A stretch of 64,000 nucleotides of DNA from Alphaproteobacteria bacterium. GTDB taxonomy: Bacteria > Pseudomonadota > Alphaproteobacteria > DSM-16000 > Inquilinaceae. The DNA is taken from contig JANQSN010000028.1 in NCBI GenBank assembly GCA_028284045.1, forward strand, positions 62,001 through 126,000, read 5' to 3'. Below, piece after piece: positions 6,825-27,827 of this stretch. The translations under genes and the position numbers were made by a program. Under the pieces are notes generated by a model. It saw nothing but the letters and a program-made list of their open reading frames with translations. It made no database searches and was not told where the DNA came from. Numbering within the stretch: the first letter of the stretch is position 1; every line of letters starts with the position of its first letter.

Positions 6825-8981
6825 GTGAGCGAGCTCGACGCCGGCACCGGCACGCCTACCGTCCCGGCACCGGCCCCCTCCCCGGCGAAGACCCCGACCC
6901 ATCAGGGCCGGCAGATGATCGGCACGCTGGGCCGCACGGTGATGCGCGGCGACATCGCGCTGGCGCTCGGCGTGGTGGCGATCCTGGTTGTCCTGATCCT
7001 GCCGATGCCGAAATGGCTGCTCGACATCTCGCTGGCCATCTCGATCACCATCTCGGTCCTCATCCTGATGACCGTGCTATTCCTGGAGAAGCCGCTCGAC
7101 CTCAACTCCTTTCCGACGATCCTGCTGATCGCGACGATGCTACGGCTGTCGCTCAACCTCGCCTCGACCCGGCTGATCCTGGCCAACGGGCACGAGGGGC
7201 CGGACGCCGCCGGCGCGGTGATCGCCGCCTTCGGCTCCTTCGTCATGGGCGGCAATTTCGTCATCGGGATCATCGTCTTCGCGATCCTGGTGATCGTGAA
7301 CTTCATCGTGATCACCAAGGGTTCCGGCCGCATCGCGGAAGTCTCCGCCCGGTTCAGCCTGGACAGCATGCCGGGCAAGCAGATGGCGATCGACGCCGAT
7401 CTGTCCGCCGGGCTGATCGACGAACCTCAGGCCCGCGCGCGCCGCCAGGAGCTGGAGGACGAAAGCAACTTCTTCGGCGCCATGGACGGTGCGGCGAAGT
7501 TCGTGCGCGGCGATGCCGTGGCCGGGCTGATGATCGTGTTCATCAACGTCATCGCCGGCATCATCATCGGCACCGCCCAGCAGGGCCTGACGCTGGCCGA
7601 TGCGGCGGAGACCTATACCGTGCTGACGGTCGGCGACGGCCTGGTCAGCCAGATCCCCGCCCTCATCGTCTCCGTCGCCGCCGGCATGCTGGTGTCCAAG
7701 GCCGGCGCCCGGCAGACCACCGAGAAGGCGGTGTTCGGCCAGCTCGGCGCCAATCCCAAGCCGATTGCGCTGGCCGCCGTGCTGCTGATCTGCCTGGCCT
7801 TGCTGCCGGGCATTCCCATGGTGCCCTTCCTGGCGCTGGCCGCCCTCGCCGGCTACGCGGCGCTGCGTCTCGGCCGCCGACAGGAGGCGGTGCGCCGCCA
7901 GGCGGCCGACGCCCAGGTCCGCAACCAGGCCGCCGCCCCGGTGGCGGAGGAACCGATCTCCGCCTCGCTGGCCATCGACCAGATCCGCCTGGAACTGGGC
8001 TACGGCCTGCTGCCGCTGATCAACTCCGAGCACGGCAGCCGGCTGACCGATCAGATCAAGGCGCTGCGGCGGCAGCTCGCCAGCGACATCGGCTTCATCA
8101 TGCCCTCGGTGCGCATCCAGGATAACCTGCAGCTTCCCTCCCAGGGCTATGTCATCCGCATCAAGGAGATCGAGACCGGGCGCGGCGAGGTCCGTCCCAA
8201 CACGCTGCTGGTCATGGACCCGCGCGGCGACGCCATCTCGCTGCCCGGCGAGGCGACGGTGGAGCCGACCTTCGGCCTGCCGGCGATGTGGGTCGACACA
8301 TCCTTCCGCGAGGAAGCGATGTTCAAGGGCTACACCGTCGTCGATCCGCAGACGGTGATCACCACCCACCTGACCGAGCTGGTCAAGGACAACATGCCGG
8401 AGCTGTTGTCCTACGCGGAGACCCAGAAGCTTCTGGACGAGCTCGGGCGCGACCAGCAGAAGCTGGTGGCCGACGTGATCCCTTCGCAGATTACCGTCGG
8501 CGGCGTGCAGCGCGTGCTGCAGAACCTGCTGGGCGAGCGGGTCTCCATCCGCGACCTGCCGACCATCCTGGAGGGCGTCGCGGAGGCCTGCGGCTACACC
8601 CGCGCGATCAGCCAGATCACCGAGCATGTGCGCGCGCGTCTGTCGCGCCAGCTCTCCGACGCCCATACCGGCGAGAGCGGGTACATCGCGCTGATCACGC
8701 TGTCGGGTCCCTGGGAGCAGGCCTTCGCCGAGGCGGTGGTCGGCGACGGCGAGGACCGCCAGCTCGCCATGGCGCCGTCGCGCCTTCAGGACTTTATCAC
8801 CTCGGTGCGCCAAACCTTCGAGCGGCACGCCATGATGGGCGAGAACCCGGTGCTGCTGACCAGCCCCGGCATCCGCGCCTATGTGCGATCGATCATCGAG
8901 CGCTTTCGGCCGGCGACCATCGTGATGTCGCAGAACGAGATACATCCGAAGGCCAAGATCAAGACGCTCGGCCAGATCTGA
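6825..8981 (+). CDS. flhA: Flagellar export gate protein FlhA
   Basis: 718 residues from a GTG at 6825, preceded by GGGAGAGGG. FlhA is the large inner-membrane component of the flagellar type III export gate; its cytoplasmic ring receives chaperone-substrate complexes. About eight membrane helices lie in residues 40-355. The conserved cytoplasmic loop with LNLASTRLIL and RFSLDSMPGKQMAIDADLSAG (the FHIPEP signature region) is intact. The C-terminal domain ends with IHPKAKIKTLGQI. It follows flbD by 37 bases, and the other export-gate genes (fliP, fliQ, fliR, flhB) are not in the window. Confidence 0.97.
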   Translation: MSELDAGTGTPTVPAPAPSPAKTPTHQGRQMIGTLGRTVMRGDIALALGVVAILVVLILPMPKWLLDISLAISITISVLILMTVLFLEKPLDLNSFPTILLIATMLRLSLNLASTRLILANGHEGPDAAGAVIAAFGSFVMGGNFVIGIIVFAILVIVNFIVITKGSGRIAEVSARFSLDSMPGKQMAIDADLSAGLIDEPQARARRQELEDESNFFGAMDGAAKFVRGDAVAGLMIVFINVIAGIIIGTAQQGLTLADAAETYTVLTVGDGLVSQIPALIVSVAAGMLVSKAGARQTTEKAVFGQLGANPKPIALAAVLLICLALLPGIPMVPFLALAALAGYAALRLGRRQEAVRRQAADAQVRNQAAAPVAEEPISASLAIDQIRLELGYGLLPLINSEHGSRLTDQIKALRRQLASDIGFIMPSVRIQDNLQLPSQGYVIRIKEIETGRGEVRPNTLLVMDPRGDAISLPGEATVEPTFGLPAMWVDTSFREEAMFKGYTVVDPQTVITTHLTELVKDNMPELLSYAETQKLLDELGRDQQKLVADVIPSQITVGGVQRVLQNLLGERVSIRDLPTILEGVAEACGYTRAISQITEHVRARLSRQLSDAHTGESGYIALITLSGPWEQAFAEAVVGDGEDRQLAMAPSRLQDFITSVRQTFERHAMMGENPVLLTSPGIRAYVRSIIERFRPATIVMSQNEIHPKAKIKTLGQI

Positions 8982-18742: not shown

Positions 18743-21445
18743 TCAGGCCGCCTGGCCGTAGACGTCGTTCAGCGTCTCCGCCAGGCTGTTCAACAGAAGA
18801 TCGCGATCGAACTTCGCCACATAGTCGGTGAAGCCCGCCTCGCGGCCGCGGTCGAGATCGCGCGGCGTGGCGTGCGACGAGAGCGCGATCAGCGGCAGCG
18901 CCTGCCAGGGCCCTTCCGCGCGCACCCGCTCTGCGAAGTCGAAGCCGCTCATGCCGGGCATCTCGATATCGGAGATGATCGCGTCGAACATCTGGCCCTC
19001 TTCCGCCATGGCCAAGGCCTGCTCCGCGCTGCTCACCGCGGTGACCTCGTAGCCCGACACCGTCAACAGCGGCGTCAGCATGTTGCAGAAGAAGGGGCTG
19101 TCATCGACCAGCAGAATGCGGCTGCGCTTCTCGTCGCTCTCGAAGGCCTCGCCATTGGCGCCGAACCAGTCGTGATAGGCCTGGGTCAGGTAGGCGCCGG
19201 CATCGATGACGTCGGTCGCCCGGCCGTCGACGATGGCGCTGCCGATCAGGCCCGACTGCTCGCCGGCGAGTTCGACATTCAGCTTCTCTTCGACGATGTC
19301 GACGATCTCGTCGACGATCAGGCCCATCGACCGCTCGCCTTCGGAGAACACCAGGACCGGCTTGCGGCCGTCCTCGCCGCCGGGATGGAACATGCCGTCG
19401 AAGGGGATCAGTGGCATCAGCTTGCCGCGGTACTGCACGACCAGCCGCCCGTTCGACAGCTCCATGTTCTTCTCTTCGATGTCCTCCAGGCGCGAGACCA
19501 GCGCCAGCGGCACCGCCTTCGGCGCCCCGTCGCCGGCGCGGAACAGGAGCAGCGCGACCGCTTCGTCGCCCGTCGCCTGACGCTGCGTCTCGGTGGTGCC
19601 GGCCATGCCCTCCGCCACGGTGATCTCGCCGGTCGCCTGGGCGATGCCGTTGGGATCGAGGATCATGATCACGCTGCCGTCGCCGAGGATGGTGTTGCCG
19701 GAGAACATCTCGATCGAGCGCAGGATCGGCGCCACCGGCTTGACCACGATCTCCTCCGTGTCGAAGACCCGATCGACGATGATGCCGAAGGAGTAGGCCC
19801 CGACCTGGGTGACGACGACGAAGCTCTCGGTCCCCTCGCCTTCCGCCGCTTCGAGCTGCAAGAGCTTGCGCAGGCTGACCAGCGGCAGCAGGCGGTTGCG
19901 CAGGCGCAAGACGGCCGCGCCGTTGAGCAGCTCGATCGAATGCTCGCTGTGGCCGCCGACGCGCACCAGCTCCACCACGCTGATCTGCGGGATGGCGAAC
20001 CGCTCCTTGGCGCATTCCACGACCAGCGCGGAGACGATCGCCAGGGTCAGCGGGATCTTGATCATGAAGGTGGTGCCGCGCCCCAGTTCGGACTTCAGCT
20101 CCACGGTGCCGCCGATCTTCTCGATGTTGGTGCGCACCACGTCCATGCCGACGCCGCGGCCGGAGACGCTGGTGACCTGCTCCGCGGTGGAGAAGCCGGC
20201 CTTGAAGATAAGCTGATGGACCTGACTGTCGGACATGCTGGCGGCATCGGCCTCGGAGATGAGCCCGTTGGTGACCGCCTTGGCGCGCAGCTTGTCCACC
20301 GACAGCCCTTTGCCGTCGTCGCTGATCTCGATGATGATGTGACCGCCTTCGTGATAGGCGTTCAACCGAACCTTGCCGATCTCCGACTTGCCGGCGGCGA
20401 GGCGGACGGCCGGCGGCTCGATGCCGTGGTCGGCCGAGTTGCGAACCATATGGGTCAGCGGATCCTTGATCAGCTCCAGCACCTGGCGGTCCAGCTCGGT
20501 GTCCTGGCCGAACATCTGCAGCTCGATCTTGCGGCCCAGCTCTTGGCTGAGGTCGCGGATCAGGCGCGGCAGCTTGGCCCAGGCGTTGCCGATCGGCTGC
20601 ATCCGCGTCTTCATCACGCCTTCCTGCAATTCCGACGTGACGTGGTTGAGCCGCTGCAGCGGGGCGTTGAACTCGCTGTCCTTGTGGCTGCGCAGGATCT
20701 GCAGGAGCTGGTTGCGGGTCAGCACCAGCTCCGAGACCATGGTCATCAGGTTCTCCAGAAGATCGACGTTGACGCGGATCGTCTGGTTGGCGACCTGGCT
20801 TTCCTTCGCCTCGGCGGCCGGCCGGGCTTCGGCGGCCGGCTTGGCCGCCGCGGCGGGCGCCGGTGGTGCGGCGGGGGGCGGCGCCGGCTCGGGCTCGGGC
20901 TCCACCTCGGGCTCGGGCTCCGCGGGGGGGGCCGCCTCGGCCGGCTCGTCGGAGGTGAGCAGCGGGTCGTTGTCGAGGTCGTCGAGTTCTGCGGCGACCG
21001 GCGCGGTCATCTCCGGTTCCGCTGCCGGTTCCGGCGCGGCCGCCTCGCCCTCCGCCGCGGGCGGCGAACCGCCCTCGGCCAGCACGTTGAGGCGCGCCAC
21101 GAGGTCGCTGTCGTCGCCGGCCGGTTCCTTCTCCTCGGCCTCCAGCCCGCCGATGATCGCCTTGATGCGGTCGAGGCTCTCCAGGATCAGGCTGACGGCC
21201 GTCGGGGTGACCTCCAGCGCGCCGTCGCGGAACCGGCCGAGCACGTTCTCGCCGGCATGGGCGACCCGCTCCAGACGCGGCAGTCCGAGGAAGCCGCAGG
21301 TGCCCTTGATCGTGTGGACCAGGCGGAAGATGTTGCCCAGCAGATTGGGGTCGTTCGGATTCTGCTCAAGCTGTACCAGCTCGACGTCAAGCACCGACAG
21401 GTTCTCAGTCGTCTCGGTCAGGAATTCACTGAGCAAATCATCCAT
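18743..21445 (-). CDS. cheA: Hybrid chemotaxis histidine kinase CheA with two CheW-like domains and a C-terminal receiver
   Basis: 900 residues, longer than classical CheA (about 650). Order: HPt domain with phosphorylated His44 (LVHTIKGTCGFLG); an acidic Pro/Ala linker (about 110-215); dimerisation helices (LLENLMTMVSELVLTRNQLL); the ATPase domain with the N box (LTHMVRNSADHGIEPP) and G boxes (ISDDGKGLS, SGRGVGMDVV); a CheW-like domain; a second CheW-like domain (from VALLLFRAGD to VDEIVDIVEE); and a receiver (about 774-900, RILLVDDSPFF, Asp in IISDIEMPGMSG). This resembles the CheAY hybrids used in gliding and some flagellar systems. No separate cheW gene is present, which may explain the extra CheW-like module. 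A near-consensus CtrA box lies upstream. Confidence 0.95.
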   Translation of the reverse strand: MDDLLSEFLTETTENLSVLDVELVQLEQNPNDPNLLGNIFRLVHTIKGTCGFLGLPRLERVAHAGENVLGRFRDGALEVTPTAVSLILESLDRIKAIIGGLEAEEKEPAGDDSDLVARLNVLAEGGSPPAAEGEAAAPEPAAEPEMTAPVAAELDDLDNDPLLTSDEPAEAAPPAEPEPEVEPEPEPAPPPAAPPAPAAAAKPAAEARPAAEAKESQVANQTIRVNVDLLENLMTMVSELVLTRNQLLQILRSHKDSEFNAPLQRLNHVTSELQEGVMKTRMQPIGNAWAKLPRLIRDLSQELGRKIELQMFGQDTELDRQVLELIKDPLTHMVRNSADHGIEPPAVRLAAGKSEIGKVRLNAYHEGGHIIIEISDDGKGLSVDKLRAKAVTNGLISEADAASMSDSQVHQLIFKAGFSTAEQVTSVSGRGVGMDVVRTNIEKIGGTVELKSELGRGTTFMIKIPLTLAIVSALVVECAKERFAIPQISVVELVRVGGHSEHSIELLNGAAVLRLRNRLLPLVSLRKLLQLEAAEGEGTESFVVVTQVGAYSFGIIVDRVFDTEEIVVKPVAPILRSIEMFSGNTILGDGSVIMILDPNGIAQATGEITVAEGMAGTTETQRQATGDEAVALLLFRAGDGAPKAVPLALVSRLEDIEEKNMELSNGRLVVQYRGKLMPLIPFDGMFHPGGEDGRKPVLVFSEGERSMGLIVDEIVDIVEEKLNVELAGEQSGLIGSAIVDGRATDVIDAGAYLTQAYHDWFGANGEAFESDEKRSRILLVDDSPFFCNMLTPLLTVSGYEVTAVSSAEQALAMAEEGQMFDAIISDIEMPGMSGFDFAERVRAEGPWQALPLIALSSHATPRDLDRGREAGFTDYVAKFDRDLLLNSLAETLNDVYGQAA

Positions 21446-21526
21446 CGGTCTACCCCGTTTGAAGTTGTCAGCCCGCGGGTCCGTAGCGGCCGGCCGCTTT
21501 CCGGTCGGCGCACGGGGCGCCGTCCT

Positions 21527-21540
21527 GGCACGATCGTGCC
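21527..21540. promoter_or_regulatory. Perfect 14-bp palindrome upstream of cheA
   Basis: GGCACGATCGTGCC is a perfect inverted repeat about 80-95 bases before the cheA start. It could be an operator for a dimeric regulator. It is not a sigma-54 promoter because the -12 element reads CC rather than GC. Confidence 0.45.
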
Positions 21541-21571
21541 CCTTGATCTCCGGAACGCTCGCAGAAAGTGA

Positions 21572-21586
21572 TTAAGAAGCCGCTAA
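21572..21586. promoter_or_regulatory. Near-consensus CtrA box upstream of cheA
   Basis: TTAA-GAAGCCG-CTAA matches seven of the eight conserved bases with the correct 7-base spacer. It lies about 127-141 bases before cheA. Confidence 0.5.
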
Positions 21587-21932
21587 GGGCTGCAGGGCCG
21601 ATCGGCGGCTCTAATGCAGGACCGCTTTGGCTGAACTCCCGCTCTCATCGATCGTCAGAGCGCGGTTCGCGGGTCGGATGTTCGGTCCCTGGACGAGTAC
21701 GCCATCACACTCCGGGGCTAAACATCTCTAGCGGGCTGCCGAGTAACACCCTCCCAACGTCTTCCCGGCGCCGGCAGAGACCGCCAGCCGATTGAAACGG
21801 AAAGAGGCACGCCAGGCGGAACCCTTGATGGGCGCGTACCGTGGGACGGGCCGCCAACCCCTTCAGACAGCAAACATTGGGTCTAGGGCATCGGCGACGC
21901 GCGCCGTCTCCATTCGAGAGGCCTCCTATACA

Positions 21933-21957
21933 TGAGAGTGAGTTGCATTCGCATTTT
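21933..21957. promoter_or_regulatory. Fur-box-like sequence upstream of the ABC transporter
   Basis: TGAGAGTGAGTTGCATTCGC and the following ATTTT resemble the runs of GAGAxTGAxTTGCATT found in Fur-regulated promoters of GC-rich proteobacteria. The site lies 83-107 bases before the first permease. The match is by eye only, but it would fit iron- or metal-regulated uptake. Confidence 0.35.
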
Positions 21958-22039
21958 GATAGGGCGATAGTCCTACCCGCCCCCGGGTAACCCCATCTGG
22001 CCTGGCGGCTTTCTAGCCCGTAGGCGGATAGCGCGTATC

Positions 22040-23023
22040 GTGCCGAGCAACCGGCAGAGACAAGGGGCGATTGCCGCGGATCCGGCGCTGGTCCAGGCAC
22101 TCACGAGGCGTTTGATCTACGGCGCGGGCCTGATGGTCGGCGTGTCTCTCGCCGCGTTCTTGAGCTTGCGCGCGCTGCCGGGCGATTTCGCCGAGGTGCT
22201 GCTGACCTATCAGATGGCCGGCGAGATCCCCTCTCAGTCGGCCCTCGACCGCTTCCGGAGCGAGCACGGCTTCGACGCGCCCATACTGATGCAGTATCTG
22301 CGTTGGATGGTCGCGGCGCTCACCGGCGATCTCGGCATGTCCTTCCGGTCCGGCGATCCGGTGATCGAGGAACTGCGGCTCGCGGTATCGGCGACGCTGT
22401 GGCTCACCGGCGTCTCGTTCGCGGTCGTGCTGCTAGGCATCCCGCTGGGCGTGATCGCCGCGCTGAAGGCCGGTGGCTGGTGGGACCGGTTGCTGACCGG
22501 TCTCGCGGTCGTCGGCATGGCCATCCCGAACTTCTGGCATGCGCTGCTGTTCATGCTGCTGTTCGGCCTGGTGCTGGGATGGCTGCCGTCGTCCGGCTAC
22601 GGCACCTGGGCGCATGTGGTCCTGCCGGCCCTGGTGATCGCCACGTCGTCGGTCGGGGTCGTCGCCCGGGTCGTCCGCCGCGCGCTGATCGAACAACGCC
22701 AGGCCCTCTATGCGCGGACGGCGCGCAGCAAGGGCGTCGCGCCCCTGCGTGTCCTGACCGACCACTGCCTGGTCAACACGGCGGCCCCGGTGCTGACGGT
22801 TCTGGGGCTGCAGGCGGCGCGGATCTTCGACGGCGCGATCGTCGTCGAAACCGTATTCGGCTGGCCGGGTCTGGGCCGCGCCCTCGCCGAAGCGGTTCTC
22901 AATCGAGACTTTCCGATGATCCAGGGCGCGATCCTGGTCATCGGCATCGCCTATGTCGTCATCAACCTGCTGGTCGACACCGCCATCGCGCTGATCGACC
23001 CGCGCGCGCGGGCGAGCCTTTAG
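22040..23023 (+). CDS. ABC transporter permease, DppB/NikB type
   Basis: 327 residues from a GTG at 22040. It has the layout of the first permease of peptide/nickel-type importers: an N-terminal helix (LIYGAGLMVGVSLAAFLSLR), a periplasmic loop, and five more helices. The EAA coupling loop is visible as YARTARSKGVAPLRVLTDH, and the C-terminus has ETVFGWPGLGRALAEAVLNRD, a strong family hallmark. It heads a forward operon of two permeases and a binding protein. The substrate cannot be deduced from the sequence. Confidence 0.9.
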   Translation: MPSNRQRQGAIAADPALVQALTRRLIYGAGLMVGVSLAAFLSLRALPGDFAEVLLTYQMAGEIPSQSALDRFRSEHGFDAPILMQYLRWMVAALTGDLGMSFRSGDPVIEELRLAVSATLWLTGVSFAVVLLGIPLGVIAALKAGGWWDRLLTGLAVVGMAIPNFWHALLFMLLFGLVLGWLPSSGYGTWAHVVLPALVIATSSVGVVARVVRRALIEQRQALYARTARSKGVAPLRVLTDHCLVNTAAPVLTVLGLQAARIFDGAIVVETVFGWPGLGRALAEAVLNRDFPMIQGAILVIGIAYVVINLLVDTAIALIDPRARASL

Positions 23024-23086
23024 CATGGCGGCCCGACAGTCCGGCGGAGACCACGGCGCCGCGCCCACCCGCCCGAAGGCGCACCA

Positions 23087-23935
23087 ATGAGCGCCCGTGT
23101 CGGACTGGTCCTGCTGGGCATCGCCGTCGTCGGCGCCGCGGTGCCCTGGCTTGCGCCGCACGATCCGCAGGCCGTGGACTTCCTGGGCCGGCTGCAGCCG
23201 CCATCGGCGACCTTCCCCCTCGGCACCGATCATATGGGCCGCTGCGTCCTCAGCCGGTTGCTGCACGGGCTGCACGTGACACCGCTGGCCGCGTTGGTCG
23301 TCGTGGCGGTCGCCGCTGCGGTCGGGACGGCGATCGGCCTGACCGCCGGGCTGGTCGGCGGCCGCCTCGACCAATTCGCCATGCGGGTCGTCGATGCCGT
23401 GCTGATCTTTCCGGCATTCGCGGTGGCGCTGGCCGTTTCGGGCATTCTGGGCATCGGCTTGTGGAGCATCGTTCTCGCCCTGGCCGGCGTGCACTGGGCC
23501 GACTATGCGCGCCTGTCGAGAAACCTCGCGGTCGTCGAGCGCGGCCAGGCCTACGTCCGGGCCGCCGAGGCGCTGGGTGTCAGCTTCGGTGGCGTCTTGG
23601 TGCGGCGATTGCTGCCGGCCGCCGTCCCGCATCTGGTGGTGCTGGCGACCTACTCGCTGTCCTGGGCGATCCTGTCCTTTGCCGGCCTCAGCTTCCTAGG
23701 TCTGGGCGCGGAACCGGGGACGGCCGAATGGGGCCTGATGATCGCCGAGGCGCGCCATCACATGCGCGCCCATCCCCTGCTGATCGCCGCACCTGGCCTC
23801 GCCATCGTCACTGTCGTGCTGGGTCTCAACCTGCTGGGCGACGCGCTGGCCGATCCCGCCACGCGCCGCCGCTCCCCGTTTTCCCGACCCATCAAACTTC
23901 GCGCTGCCAAACAAGGAGATGCTTCATGCGCATGA
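23087..23935 (+). CDS. ABC transporter permease, DppC/NikC type
   Basis: 282 residues. The second permease of the importer, recognised by the early segment PLGTDHMGRCVLSRLLHG, the EAA loop YVRAAEALGVSFGGVLVRRLLP and the late GLSFLGLGAEPGTAEWGLMIAEAR. It lies 63 bases after the first permease, and its last 10 bases overlap the start of the binding-protein gene, so all three are co-translated. The C-terminal tail is short and basic. Confidence 0.9.
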   Translation: MSARVGLVLLGIAVVGAAVPWLAPHDPQAVDFLGRLQPPSATFPLGTDHMGRCVLSRLLHGLHVTPLAALVVVAVAAAVGTAIGLTAGLVGGRLDQFAMRVVDAVLIFPAFAVALAVSGILGIGLWSIVLALAGVHWADYARLSRNLAVVERGQAYVRAAEALGVSFGGVLVRRLLPAAVPHLVVLATYSLSWAILSFAGLSFLGLGAEPGTAEWGLMIAEARHHMRAHPLLIAAPGLAIVTVVLGLNLLGDALADPATRRRSPFSRPIKLRAAKQGDASCA

Positions 23936-25473
23936 CGCGTTGCGTAGCCGTTGGGGCTGCCGCCCTTCTCGCCGGTCTGCTGATGGTCGGCGCGTCGCCG
24001 CCCGCCGTCGCTGAGGACGGCGACGAGACCTTGGTGATCGGCACCATGTGGGAATCGCTGCCGCTGTCGATGACCGCGCGGCGCAGCCGCTTCTTCAACG
24101 AGAGCGAGATCCTCGACACGCTGGTGAAGATGGACTTCGACATGCAGCTCCAGCCGGGGCTGGCGCTGTCCTGGAGCCGCCCGTCGCCGACGCAATGGGT
24201 CTTCGAACTGCGCGAAGACGTGGTTTTCCACGATGGCACCCCGTTCGATGCGGCGGCCGCCAAGCATTCGCTGGAACGGGTCATCGACCTGCTGCCTTAC
24301 GCGGCGGATTTGCTGAACATCGACACCATCACCGCGGCCGACACCCACGCGCTGGTGATCGAGACGAACGCGCCGTTCGCCGCCCTGCCGAACCAGTTGA
24401 CCGACGCCATCACCGGCATCTACGGGGCCGCCTCCTTCGACGCCGATGGTGCGTTCGTCCAGCCGGTCGGCACCGGGCCGTGGCGGTTCGTCGAATACAA
24501 CCCGCAGCAGAACACGATCGTCGAACGCTTCGACGGCTATTGGGGCGACCTGCCGGATCTGGCGCAAATCGACTACCGCTACATTCCCGACCACCATGCC
24601 CGGACGATCGCCCTGGAAGCGGGCGAGATCCATCTCGCCGCCAACATCCTGCCCGGCGATGTGGAGCGCCTCAGCGAAGAGCCCGCGTTCGCGGTGTTCC
24701 AGGCGCCCAGCGCGGGTCTGTACTACGCCGCGTTCAACGCCGCCGCCGATCGCCCGGTCGGCGACGCGCGGGTTCGCCGGGCCCTCAACCTGATGGTCGA
24801 TCGCGAGCTGATCGTTGCCGGTGCCCTCGACGGTGTCGGCGAGCCGGCCTGGCAGTTCTTCCGCGACAGCCACGACTGGGTGCCGCAGGACCTGCCAAGC
24901 TACGCGCCGGACCTCGATCGCGCCGCCGAGCTGCTGGCGGAGGCCGGCTATGCGCAGGTCGACGGACGCTGGCAGCGCGACGGAGAGCCGCTGACGCTGG
25001 AGATCTTAAGCTACTCGTCGCGCACGGAGATGCCGCTGATCACCGAGGCGATGGCCGCCTTGCTGTCGCAACAGGGCGTCGAGGTCACGATCGGCCTCTA
25101 CACCTGGCCCGGCATGCTCGATCTCGTCCGACAAGGCGACTACGACCTGTCGGTGGTCTTCTGGACGCCCGACATGATCGGCCACCCGGACCTGCACCTG
25201 AAGTCGCAGTTCCACTCCGCGGCGGAGTTGAACTACCAGAACTGGGCGCATGCCGGGTTCGATGCCGCGGTCGACCTCGGCCGAACCCTCGATCCGGGCC
25301 TGGATCGCGACGCCGCCTATCGCGAGGCACTGACCATCCTGCATGACGAAGCGGTGGTGATGCCGCTGGTCTTCAAGGTGTATGTCGCCGCCGCCAGCAG
25401 CGCCGTACAGGGGTTCCGCATCCACCCCTCCGGTTTCTTCTACAACTTCAAGGAGGTCGGCCTGGGCGGCTGA
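23926..25473 (+). CDS. Periplasmic substrate-binding protein of the peptide/nickel ABC family (SBP family 5)
   Basis: 515 residues from the ATG at 23926, with AAGGAG at 23912-23917. A signal peptide is clear (MRMTRCVAVGAAALLAGLLM, cleavage near VAEDGDE). Family 5 hallmarks follow: LQPGLALSWSRPSPTQWVFE, LREDVVFHDGTPFDAAAAKH, GTGPWRFVEY and VRRALNLMVDRELI. Family members bind oligopeptides, nickel chelates, haem or glycosides; nothing here fixes the ligand. The reading frame is also open upstream through both permeases, but this is a shadow of GC-rich coding. Confidence 0.92.
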   Translation: MRMTRCVAVGAAALLAGLLMVGASPPAVAEDGDETLVIGTMWESLPLSMTARRSRFFNESEILDTLVKMDFDMQLQPGLALSWSRPSPTQWVFELREDVVFHDGTPFDAAAAKHSLERVIDLLPYAADLLNIDTITAADTHALVIETNAPFAALPNQLTDAITGIYGAASFDADGAFVQPVGTGPWRFVEYNPQQNTIVERFDGYWGDLPDLAQIDYRYIPDHHARTIALEAGEIHLAANILPGDVERLSEEPAFAVFQAPSAGLYYAAFNAAADRPVGDARVRRALNLMVDRELIVAGALDGVGEPAWQFFRDSHDWVPQDLPSYAPDLDRAAELLAEAGYAQVDGRWQRDGEPLTLEILSYSSRTEMPLITEAMAALLSQQGVEVTIGLYTWPGMLDLVRQGDYDLSVVFWTPDMIGHPDLHLKSQFHSAAELNYQNWAHAGFDAAVDLGRTLDPGLDRDAAYREALTILHDEAVVMPLVFKVYVAAASSAVQGFRIHPSGFFYNFKEVGLGG

Positions 25474-25563
25474 CGCGCCGCCGTGCGGGCGCGCCGGACC
25501 CGCGGGACGGCGCCGCCCGAGCGGCCGCAGCGGTTGAGCGTGAGCGGTAGGGAGGCGGCAGGC

Positions 25564-26118
25564 ATGCTGCAGATCTTGGAGGACCGGGCGGTTGTGGCCC
25601 TCACCCACGCCGACCTGCTGGCCTGCGCCGGTCCGGAGAACATCGTTGCCGCCGCGCTGTGCTACCGGGTCGTGGGCTGGATGCTGCCGGCGCTGTCGCC
25701 GGGCGCGCCGCCGGAGCGGTCGCGGCTGACCTTCCGCGTGGCCTTCGGCGGGCCGGGTATCCTGGCGTGTCTGCGCCTGGTTTCGGGTGCCGAGACCGAC
25801 GATCGGGTCCGTGTCGACCCGACCTGTGCGCCGAGCGACGCGCCCGAGGCGCCGGAAGGTCGGTTCTATTTCGAGGGCGGCTATGGCGAGCGGTTTTGTT
25901 CTGCCTATCCCCTGCCCGCCGTCTTCCCGCGAAACTTCCTCGACCAAGTCGCCCGGTTTCAGGAGGGCGGCGGCACCCCGTCCCAGCAATCGGCCTATCA
26001 GCGCGTCAAGCGCGCCTTCGCCAGCCGGATTCTGGCGCGGCCCACCGAGATCCTGTTGCGAACGCGGGTCTGGTCCCCGGACCGGGACACCGCCGGACCT
26101 GAGGACTCACAGGCATGA
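25564..26118 (+). CDS. FmdE-like protein, copy 1 (degenerate)
   Basis: 184 residues from the ATG at 25564, with GGGAGG at about 25550. By eye it is a paralogue of the next gene: both share the opening HxxDLLxxxGxENIxxxALxYxV, a central strand region and a GRFYFxxGY segment. The fold pattern resembles the N-terminal domain of FmdE, a protein named from formylmethanofuran dehydrogenase operons. The metal/Cys motif of true FmdE (HGHxCPG) is lost here. It follows the transporter genes by 90 bases and probably shares their job. Function unknown. Confidence 0.5.
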   Translation: MLQILEDRAVVALTHADLLACAGPENIVAAALCYRVVGWMLPALSPGAPPERSRLTFRVAFGGPGILACLRLVSGAETDDRVRVDPTCAPSDAPEAPEGRFYFEGGYGERFCSAYPLPAVFPRNFLDQVARFQEGGGTPSQQSAYQRVKRAFASRILARPTEILLRTRVWSPDRDTAGPEDSQA

Positions 26119-26130
26119 CGAGAAACACGG

Positions 26131-26649
26131 ATGAGTGACGTCTTGAAAATACGCGACGGCAGCCATGTCATCGCGCTGTGCTTAGAAGATCTCGTGAAAT
26201 ACCACGGGCGCGAGAACATCGGGGGTGTCGCCCTCGGCTTCAAGGTCCTGGAGTTCGCCTTCTCGCAGCTCAGCCCGCACGAGATCCCCCAGCGCAGCGA
26301 GATCGAGGTCTTCACCGCCTTTCCGGGGACGGGCGCGATCGACGCGTTCGAGATGGTGACGCGGGCGGTCACCCGAAACCGGTTCCGGCTCGACACGGAC
26401 GCGGACGTACCGGACGCCTTGGCGGCCGTCACGGGCCGCTTCTACTTCCGCATCGGCTACCGCGGCCGGTCCCTGGCGGTGACCCCGCGCGGGGGCCTGA
26501 TCCCCGACCGTTTCTTTCAGCTCAGCCGCATGCACAAGGCCGGTGAGGCATCGCCGGCGGACACGATCGAATTCCAGGGGATGAAGGAGGCCTTGGCCGA
26601 TGCGCTGATGGCCTTGGACGCTGAAGAGGTTTTCAAGGTGTTGGGGTAA
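26131..26649 (+). CDS. FmdE-like protein, copy 2 (degenerate)
   Basis: 172 residues. The segment LVKYHGRENIGGVALGFKVLE (residues 21-41) sits where FmdE has its HGHxCPGLAIGYR motif: His25 and Gly26 are kept, but the second His and the Cys are not. Next come VFTAFPGTGAIDAFEMVTRA, matching the DAIQxxTG region of FmdE, and TGRFYFRIGYRGRSLAV. Together with copy 1 it forms a tandem pair behind an ATPase-less importer. It might bind the imported ligand or chelated metal in the cytoplasm; that is inference only. Confidence 0.55.
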   Translation: MSDVLKIRDGSHVIALCLEDLVKYHGRENIGGVALGFKVLEFAFSQLSPHEIPQRSEIEVFTAFPGTGAIDAFEMVTRAVTRNRFRLDTDADVPDALAAVTGRFYFRIGYRGRSLAVTPRGGLIPDRFFQLSRMHKAGEASPADTIEFQGMKEALADALMALDAEEVFKVLG

Positions 26650-26984
26650 GGGCGAGGCATTGGGTTAGGGCGTTCGAGATCACGCTCAAGCTGGGCTGCT
26701 GGTCGTCGGCGTTTGGCCCGAACCGGTAGTTCTGCACCTACGGGAATTGATGCACATCGACCAAGTGCGGTTCGCAAACGAATCTCCTAATGCTGGATAG
26801 GCTACTACTGTCGGCGAATGCGCACTTCCGTCGCCCGAGGTGTCTGATCGGACATACGCGCCACTCAACGAAAGCTTGATTATCAGGCGTCAGCAACTCG
26901 CTATTGACTTGACGAACGAAAAGTAGTTGTCGTATCCTGATTTTTGAGATTCCATGAACTCTATCATTATCCAGCGAGACCAGA
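26650..26984. other. Transition from GC-rich chromosome to AT-rich insert
   Basis: No gene is supported in these 335 bases. Base composition falls steadily towards the following gene. A sigma-70-type promoter lies at its right end (26909-26938). Confidence 0.55.
26909..26938 (+). promoter_or_regulatory. Sigma-70-type promoter of the AT-rich gene
   Basis: TTGACG, an 18-base spacer and TATCCT are followed by the start codon about 47 bases downstream. Confidence 0.5.
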
Positions 26985-27827
26985 ATGGAAGTCAGATCGG
27001 CATTTGTGATTTGTCCGATTGGCGATCCAGAAACCGAGACGCGGCAACGCTCCGACCAAGTCTATAAACACATCATCAAACCAGCCCTATCGGAGTCGGG
27101 TTTTGAACCGGTTCGAGCAGACGAGATTTCTGAGCCGGGCACGATCACCAGTCAGGTAATTGAACGAATTATGGAGTCACCGCTGGTCGTTGCCGACCTA
27201 AGTGAACATAATCCAAATGTATTCTATGAACTGGCTTTGAGACACGCTACCGGCCAACCATATATTCAGCTAATACGAAAAGGCGAGAGAATACCATTCG
27301 ATGTTGCTGGAACACGTACAATACTGTTTGATATGACAAATCCAGACAGTGTTGTAGACGCGAGATGTGAAATTGGTCGGCAGATTCAGGCCCTTGAAAA
27401 TAGTGATAGCCCTGCCAGCAATCCTGTTTCGATATCAATTGATTTGAAGAAATTTCGGGAGAAAAGCACACCTGAATCTCAAACAATTGTTGAGGTAATT
27501 GATAGCATAAACAAGCTATATGATCGCCTATCATACATAGATGGGAAAATTAGTAACCCTGAATCTCTTTTACCGATAATGTATTTGAGGCGAGCAATAG
27601 ATTTTAGTCAATCAAAGATAGGCTCTCCGAGTGTGGAGTCCATTAGTGGAACAACCATACAGTCACTACTGGACATATGCGCAGAAATACAAAAAGAAAC
27701 CCAAATGGATTATACCAAGAGTGATATTGCGAGTGATAGATATTTAATGAAACTCAGCGATATAGCAAAGAAAGCTAGACGGCTATCAAATATAATTTAT
27801 CGAATTGCTGACGACAAATCAGTCTGA
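26985..27827 (+). CDS. TIR/nucleoside-deoxyribosyltransferase-like protein on an AT-rich insert (putative defence effector)
   Basis: 280 residues. The N-terminal 120 residues have the pattern of stand-alone TIR-like or deoxyribosyltransferase-like domains: FVICPIGDPE, then a Tyr-rich helix, RADEI (45-49), a strand ending VVADLSEHNPNVFYELALRH (68-87, with Asp71, Asn78 and Glu82 as the likely active-site group), and a PFDVAGTRTILFD segment. The remaining 160 residues are helical and unrecognised. The gene is about 40% GC against roughly 70% around it, with its own promoter and a hairpin 10 bases after the stop. Both the composition and the domain type suggest horizontal transfer and a role in nucleotide- or NAD-directed immunity; that role is not proven. 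Confidence 0.6.
   Translation: MEVRSAFVICPIGDPETETRQRSDQVYKHIIKPALSESGFEPVRADEISEPGTITSQVIERIMESPLVVADLSEHNPNVFYELALRHATGQPYIQLIRKGERIPFDVAGTRTILFDMTNPDSVVDARCEIGRQIQALENSDSPASNPVSISIDLKKFREKSTPESQTIVEVIDSINKLYDRLSYIDGKISNPESLLPIMYLRRAIDFSQSKIGSPSVESISGTTIQSLLDICAEIQKETQMDYTKSDIASDRYLMKLSDIAKKARRLSNIIYRIADDKSV

Follow-up and report, generated by a model that had tools for sequence, protein, structure and literature searches.

To our knowledge, and as far as the literature has been surveyed, no function has been assigned to the FmdE proteins, whose structures have been available since 2006. The published account of these structures (PMC2954224) describes the FmdE proteins of known structure as dimers in which both subunits contribute to the clefts, with tight intertwining in some cases, and in its section 3.3 reports a mixed zinc/nickel ion bound in 2glz by His15, His17, Cys19 and Cys55. 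According to section 3.7 of the same account, most FmdE genes adjoin genes for metal-ion transporters and only 13 of 208 lie in fmd operons, a figure at odds with the original prediction, which had placed FmdE proteins with formylmethanofuran dehydrogenases. Both the FmdE fold and the gene linkage to metal-ion transporters are thus on record in PMC2954224.

The gene pair described here lies in a window (the whole stretch of DNA analysed, 64,000 nucleotides long) from an alphaproteobacterium of the Inquilinaceae. Copy 1 (P0001, 184 aa) occupies positions 25564-26118 and copy 2 (P0002, 172 aa) positions 26131-26649, both on the forward strand, with a gap of 12 bases between them and the hexamer GGGAGG immediately 5' of copy 1. 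From the ORFs, the AlphaFold2 models and the Foldseek and VIA comparisons, and for copy 1 also from the tree, they are classified as Cys-less proteins with a predicted FmdE fold, copy 1 in class B and copy 2 in class A. The presence of two adjacent genes for related proteins, as originally proposed, is confirmed: in a single pairwise comparison the products share 54 of 168 residues (32%, E 1e-25), and by this sequence similarity they are paralogues. The GC content at third codon positions is 0.84 in copy 1 and 0.88 in copy 2, similar to that of the importer genes, and comparison with the homologues at L001 yields dN of about 0.19 and dS of about 0.76 for copy 2 (A), and about 0.37 and 0.91, respectively, for copy 1 (B); codon-position GC and the substitution pattern against the L001 pair therefore indicate that both copies are maintained coding genes. 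No further copies of the pair were found in its own genome (4.32 Mb in 63 contigs). No signal peptide is visible by eye in either sequence, which would place ligand-binding proteins serving the transporter, as the pair had been interpreted, in the cytosol.

In sequence, the kinship with FmdE proteins is only weakly discernible. Copy 2 matches the Pfam model PF02663 with an E-value of 0.0019 and 18.7 bits, below the gathering cut-off of 22.9, and copy 1 does not match it at all, so a profile search supports the proposed FmdE relationship weakly for the former and not for the latter; no protein of the own genome reaches E 0.001 for this model. Among the 18 members of alignment A1, seven match PF02663 with an E-value of 1 or less, the lowest being 1.5e-4. 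The A1 profile in turn finds GHxCP proteins in the phylum, some of which exceed the FmdE Pfam cut-off, and hhalign relates A1 to five GHxCP FmdE proteins with a probability of 97.2 and E 3.5e-11. Direct sequence and profile searches of PDB sequences with the family returned no FmdE entry. The predicted structures gave a clear answer, namely that both copies would possess the α+β core fold of FmdE. The AlphaFold2 model of copy 2 has a pLDDT of 96.1 and that of copy 1, built with class A rows in the alignment, which biases it toward a common fold, 91.6. Foldseek retrieved only FmdE entries below E 0.001 with either model: 2gvi and 2glz for copy 2, and 2glz and 2gvi as the top matches for copy 1. 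VIA Z-scores for copy 2 are 12.4 with 2glz (rmsd 3.2, 135 aligned residues), 10.6 with 3d00 and 10.4 with 2gvi, the next entry scoring 6.1; for copy 1 they are 13.5 with 2glz (rmsd 2.8, 138 aligned), 11.1 with 2gvi and 10.9 with 3d00, the next entry scoring 4.8. Sensitive searches, i.e. hhalign and Foldseek, thus do reveal FmdE similarity, and the only significant matches of both models are FmdE crystal structures.

The metal site has been lost almost completely. In copy 2, the residues aligned with F-H-G-H-x-C, the metal motif of FmdE, are Y-H-G-R-E-N (Y24-N29, codons at 26200-26217, forward strand), in agreement with the prediction that HG is kept and the Cys is not. Copy 1 reads C-A-G-P-E-N; its His is missing as expected, and the Gly, believed to be lost as well, is in fact retained. 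Of the four canonical FmdE ligands copy 2 has one left (the counterpart of His15) and copy 1 none. An alignment of 29 Cys-less rows exhibits YHG in 21 of the 23 non-B rows and YSG in the remaining two (L031 and L017), while the motif His is absent from all six B rows. The second His is found in none of the 29 rows, nor is any Cys of the motif: owing to a gap within the motif the Cys19 column may be off by one position, and there is still no Cys across the stretch in 29/29. In five of the six B rows, all except L019, a Cys immediately follows the column of a conserved Asp (occupied by Ala in copy 1); this Cys does not coincide with canonical Cys55.

A maximum-likelihood tree of 34 rows separated the Cys-less family from the GHxCP proteins with 100/100 support, and united class B of the window with L001, L003, L096, the E. 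coli plasmid and Azospirillum in a single clade (100/99). This was the second tree, calculated without L008 and L032, two rows with long branches that had come together in the first one; L013 and L018, both partial, were included in neither. As B rows cluster together (100/99) away from their own A partners, a recent local duplication was rejected, and A and B are, judging from the tree, the two sides of an old paralogue split. The two classes share few conserved residues; members of A were found in two phyla and those of B in several lineages of Pseudomonadota. An intact A accompanies B in four of six B loci and a fragment of A in a fifth. A whole-genome search in Azospirillum thermophilum (G801, the same place as L019) revealed B and no A, and for this reason a strict mutual dependence of A and B was dropped as an explanation. 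The opposite extreme is found at L096 (genome G812): a single ORF of 357 aa there comprises B and A as an in-frame fusion, its B part being 36.8% identical to copy 1 and the A part that follows 49.1% identical to copy 2. An eroded operon of the window type was observed at L003:7071-8673, where the first part of nikB runs directly into the last part of nikA, with B and a fragment of A behind them; the B frame continues into a linker of the L096 type and the A fragment is out of frame (70% identity over 30 residues), an arrangement that could also be an assembly fault. In E. coli, the A/B operon was found in 5 of 5426 complete genomes, always on plasmids.

Directly upstream of the pair, and on the same strand, there are three importer genes, as the original prediction had stated. 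The NikB/Opp-type permease (22040-23023) matches BPD_transp_1 at 2.4e-39, its best NCBIfam model being Opp2B (284 bits, cut-off 350); the NikC/Opp-type permease (23087-23935) matches BPD_transp_1 at 1.7e-26 and nickel_nikC with 267 bits (cut-off 358); and the NikA/Opp-type substrate-binding protein (23926-25473) matches SBP_bac_5 at 4.1e-78 and Opp5A_nikA with 241 bits (cut-off 600). The NCBIfam equivalog cut-offs were all missed, by the NikA models with 173 of 393 and 241 of 600 bits, by NikB with 253 of 447 and by NikC with 267 of 358. The order nikB-nikC-nikA-B-A is common to the window and L096, with importer identities of 51% for the first permease, about 55-61% for the second and 59% (over 488 aa) for the binding protein. 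In the genome G006 the best match to nikA of the window is only 30% identical, i.e. no orthologue was found there. A tblastn search with five ABC ATPases found none in the window or in L096; as the operon encodes no ATPase, its importer would depend on one that is shared and encoded elsewhere in the genome. No riboswitch or other RNA element was detected at E 0.1 within 21400-27000. The neighbours of the pair comprise the importer, chemotaxis and flagellar genes (identified by eye) and an uncharacterized ORF, and genes for Fmd/Fwd catalytic subunits are not among them. The last-mentioned ORF (26985-27827, 280 aa, downstream of the pair) matches nothing in Pfam at E 0.01 and nothing convincingly in NCBIfam. 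The setting next to flagellar genes had been called unexpected; since FmdE genes mostly lie beside those of metal-ion transporters, as reported in PMC2954224, the neighbourhood is normal for the family and the flagellar genes look incidental.

Across the family, 29 distinct loci were compared, of which L001 and L055 could not be judged because of a contig edge (that of L001 begins 193 bases upstream of B, with no end of nikA in those bases). Near-identical records were merged (L027 with L016, L028 with L023, L098 with L002, L001 with G006), and for the plasmids 15 of 39 matching records were covered. By a raw count made by eye, 19 of the 27 resolvable loci belong to operons that include genes of an ABC importer. 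These importers are of the Nik/Opp type at five loci (the window, L096, L003, L024 and L025), of the SsuABC type at three (L014, L019 and L002) and of the FecBCD type at eleven (L015, L026, L016, L020, L021, two in L022, L023, L051, L052 and L057). The eight loci without an importer are L097, with a TonB receptor; L053, with an ATPase and an FtsX/MacB-type permease, which is not an importer; L054, with a phosphonate cluster and AzlC; L056; L017; L058; L059, with a hyp operon; and L018, truncated and with a Tn3 transposase. Because of these eight loci, two of them with Vibrio-type A copies, a universal importer linkage was dropped. The tie between the pair and its importer is nevertheless supported by conserved linkage: the same gene order in G812, the eroded copy at L003 and the 19 of 27 family loci.

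Other neighbours give hints as to the cargo. The order hypE-A-hypB-NicO at L059 (hyp names read from the sequences and Pfam domains), a HupE/UreJ-type protein at L025 and TonB receptors adjoining family members in L015, L026, L097 and L003 (the last also with DUF4198) point to metal chelates. The metal link is not obvious in the SsuABC contexts or in those with C-P lyase, whose phn genes directly follow A in L016, L022, L023 and L028, with the first of them, phnG, at the record end in L027; in L054 a phosphonate cluster is located upstream of A. Chelating phosphonates as cargo would unite all these contexts, and their bacterial degradation is reportedly the subject of one study (PMC11356716). 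The combination of a FecBCD-type importer, A and phn was seen on plasmids of Klebsiella, Morganella, Agrobacterium, Labrenzia and Martelella (L016, L022, L023, L027, L028), with two further genes annotated as microcin B17-processing McbC in L016. Two unnamed proteins of ~200 aa, or one of ~435 aa, adjoin A in the same operon in L015, L020, L021, L022, L024, L025, L026, L051, L052 and L057; they are absent from the window operon, and some have weak DUF4159/DUF4350-like matches. At both A loci of the genome G838 (L097:8835-9887 and L002:4812-5483) a nearby protein matches the C-terminal domain of iron-only hydrogenases (8.4e-19 and 8.1e-7), the two being 23% identical to each other. Among the GHxCP proteins, an FmdE above the Pfam cut-off is encoded in L063:1531-8444 (6975-7601) between two FecCD-type permeases and an ABC ATPase, preceded by a Peripla_BP_2 binding protein and, upstream, a 721-aa ORF resembling a TonB receptor.

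The data back the fold (through predicted models), the paralogy, the loss of ligands, the conservation of the operon and the fusion of the B and A genes. Proceeding from these, we infer that the Nik/Opp-type importer of the operon would bring its cargo, probably either a metal chelate or an organic chelator by itself, into the cytosol, where A and B would form a heterodimer, the paralogues taking the places of the two FmdE subunits, and that a cleft built from A and B would receive the cargo and hold it or hand it on. Binding would proceed without the canonical His/His/Cys/Cys metal site, given that A retains a single ligand of it and B not one. The usual importer neighbours and the B-A fusion in one relative suggest that A and B probably work together on the imported cargo, and the fusion lends indirect support to a dimer with clefts from both subunits. 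What counts against this reading is that in Azospirillum thermophilum B can do without A, that eight of 27 loci have no adjoining importer, and that nothing obviously relates SsuABC or C-P lyase neighbours to metal. All things considered, we regard a cytosolic A/B heterodimer that receives the cargo of the importer without canonical metal binding as an even bet. It is possible, if improbable, that A/B constitute a more general cytosolic acceptor, which would take an intact chelate from three unrelated importer folds and separate or sort metal and ligand, the latter passing e.g. to C-P lyase if it is a chelating phosphonate.

The tight operon linkage with importers would also suit a cytosolic regulatory or assembly subunit, whose docking site would be the permease or a shared ATPase and which would bind no cargo, and since the importer operons of the window and L096 have no ATPase, an adaptor to a shared one could help. 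Importers of the Nik/Opp, SsuABC and FecBCD classes are unrelated in fold, with no obvious common docking surface, so that a common kind of cargo seems a better guess; moreover some members (L017, L058, L059) have no adjoining importer, and we consider a docking subunit rather unlikely. Alternatively, A/B could have remained a metallochaperone, for nickel or some comparable metal, with other residues as ligands, e.g. the His of the class A YHG and the Cys that follows the conserved-Asp position in B. That His is kept in 21 of 23 non-B rows and that Cys in 5 of 6 B rows, some neighbours are of nickel type (nikABC-like genes, the hyp operon with NicO, the HupE/UreJ-like protein), and the canonical site of 2glz held mixed Zn/Ni according to PMC2954224. 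Nonetheless, such a role is doubtful, given that the motif Cys and the second His are missing from 29 of 29 rows, that L019 lacks the B Cys, and that in 3d00, where the site is partly lost, no zinc is bound there by the account in PMC2954224, section 3.3.

The link to phosphonate genes (phn after A in L016, L022, L023 and L028, phnG at the end of L027, the cluster before A in L054) is what would be expected of an enzyme modifying the imported compound, a role we hold to be very unlikely given how few conserved residues the two classes share. Furthermore, we know of no catalytic motif for the FmdE fold, which we also count against an enzyme. Finally, the lost ligand residues and the eroded copy in L003 might suggest that A and B are merely functionless, degenerate remnants of an FmdE locus. 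The substitution pattern already disfavours this explanation: frames are open, dN is well below dS and the folds are well predicted, and with class A spanning two phyla and class B several lineages of Pseudomonadota we regard it as extremely improbable.

The novelty with respect to the published FmdE work lies in the Cys-less branch, in its two old classes that occur in one operon or in one polypeptide, and in their ties to three importer classes. Neither Pfam nor NCBIfam has a model that the Cys-less members scanned match above cut-off, and in the literature on FmdE (in connection with transporters, nickel, siderophores, C-P lyase and metallochaperones), a survey that mainly covered freely accessible papers, we found no account of a Cys-less A/B class. 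A branch that has no metal site and retains the fold and the importer linkage, split into two classes that probably work together, parts what the fold needs from the role of the metal site. The A/B pair is a compact, testable system, with a version on E. coli plasmids included, and its association with genes for C-P lyase hints at a class of cargo worth assaying.

In comparison with the FmdE family (PF02663; 2glz, 2gvi, 3d00), the window pair has the predicted fold in common over 129-142 aligned residues, is connected with it by sequence profiles too, and matches the transporter adjacency described as a family trait in PMC2954224, section 3.7. It differs in its Pfam scores, which are below the cut-off or nil, in having no zinc-finger extension, and in the reduction of the canonical His15/His17/Cys19/Cys55 set to one residue in A and none in B; the Cys-less branch as a whole differs by its two classes, which occur as a pair or a fusion. 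A precedent for the loss is 3d00 (Q2LQ23_SYNAS), in which the first His and the Cys are gone and no zinc is bound in the NTD, as section 3.3 of PMC2954224 reports; however, this is a single protein with a zinc finger and no paralogue pair, and it loses the first His, which copy 2 keeps. The permeases and the binding protein of the window operon are of the same type as those of the NikABCDE and Opp importers of nickel and peptides, from which the operon differs by missing the NCBIfam equivalog cut-offs and having no ABC ATPase in the window. On E. coli plasmids of the pECOED type, in the operon A-ssuC-ssuB-ssuA-B, one A and one B, both annotated as small hypothetical proteins, flank the importer, which in contrast to that of the window is of the SsuABC type and has its own ATPase.
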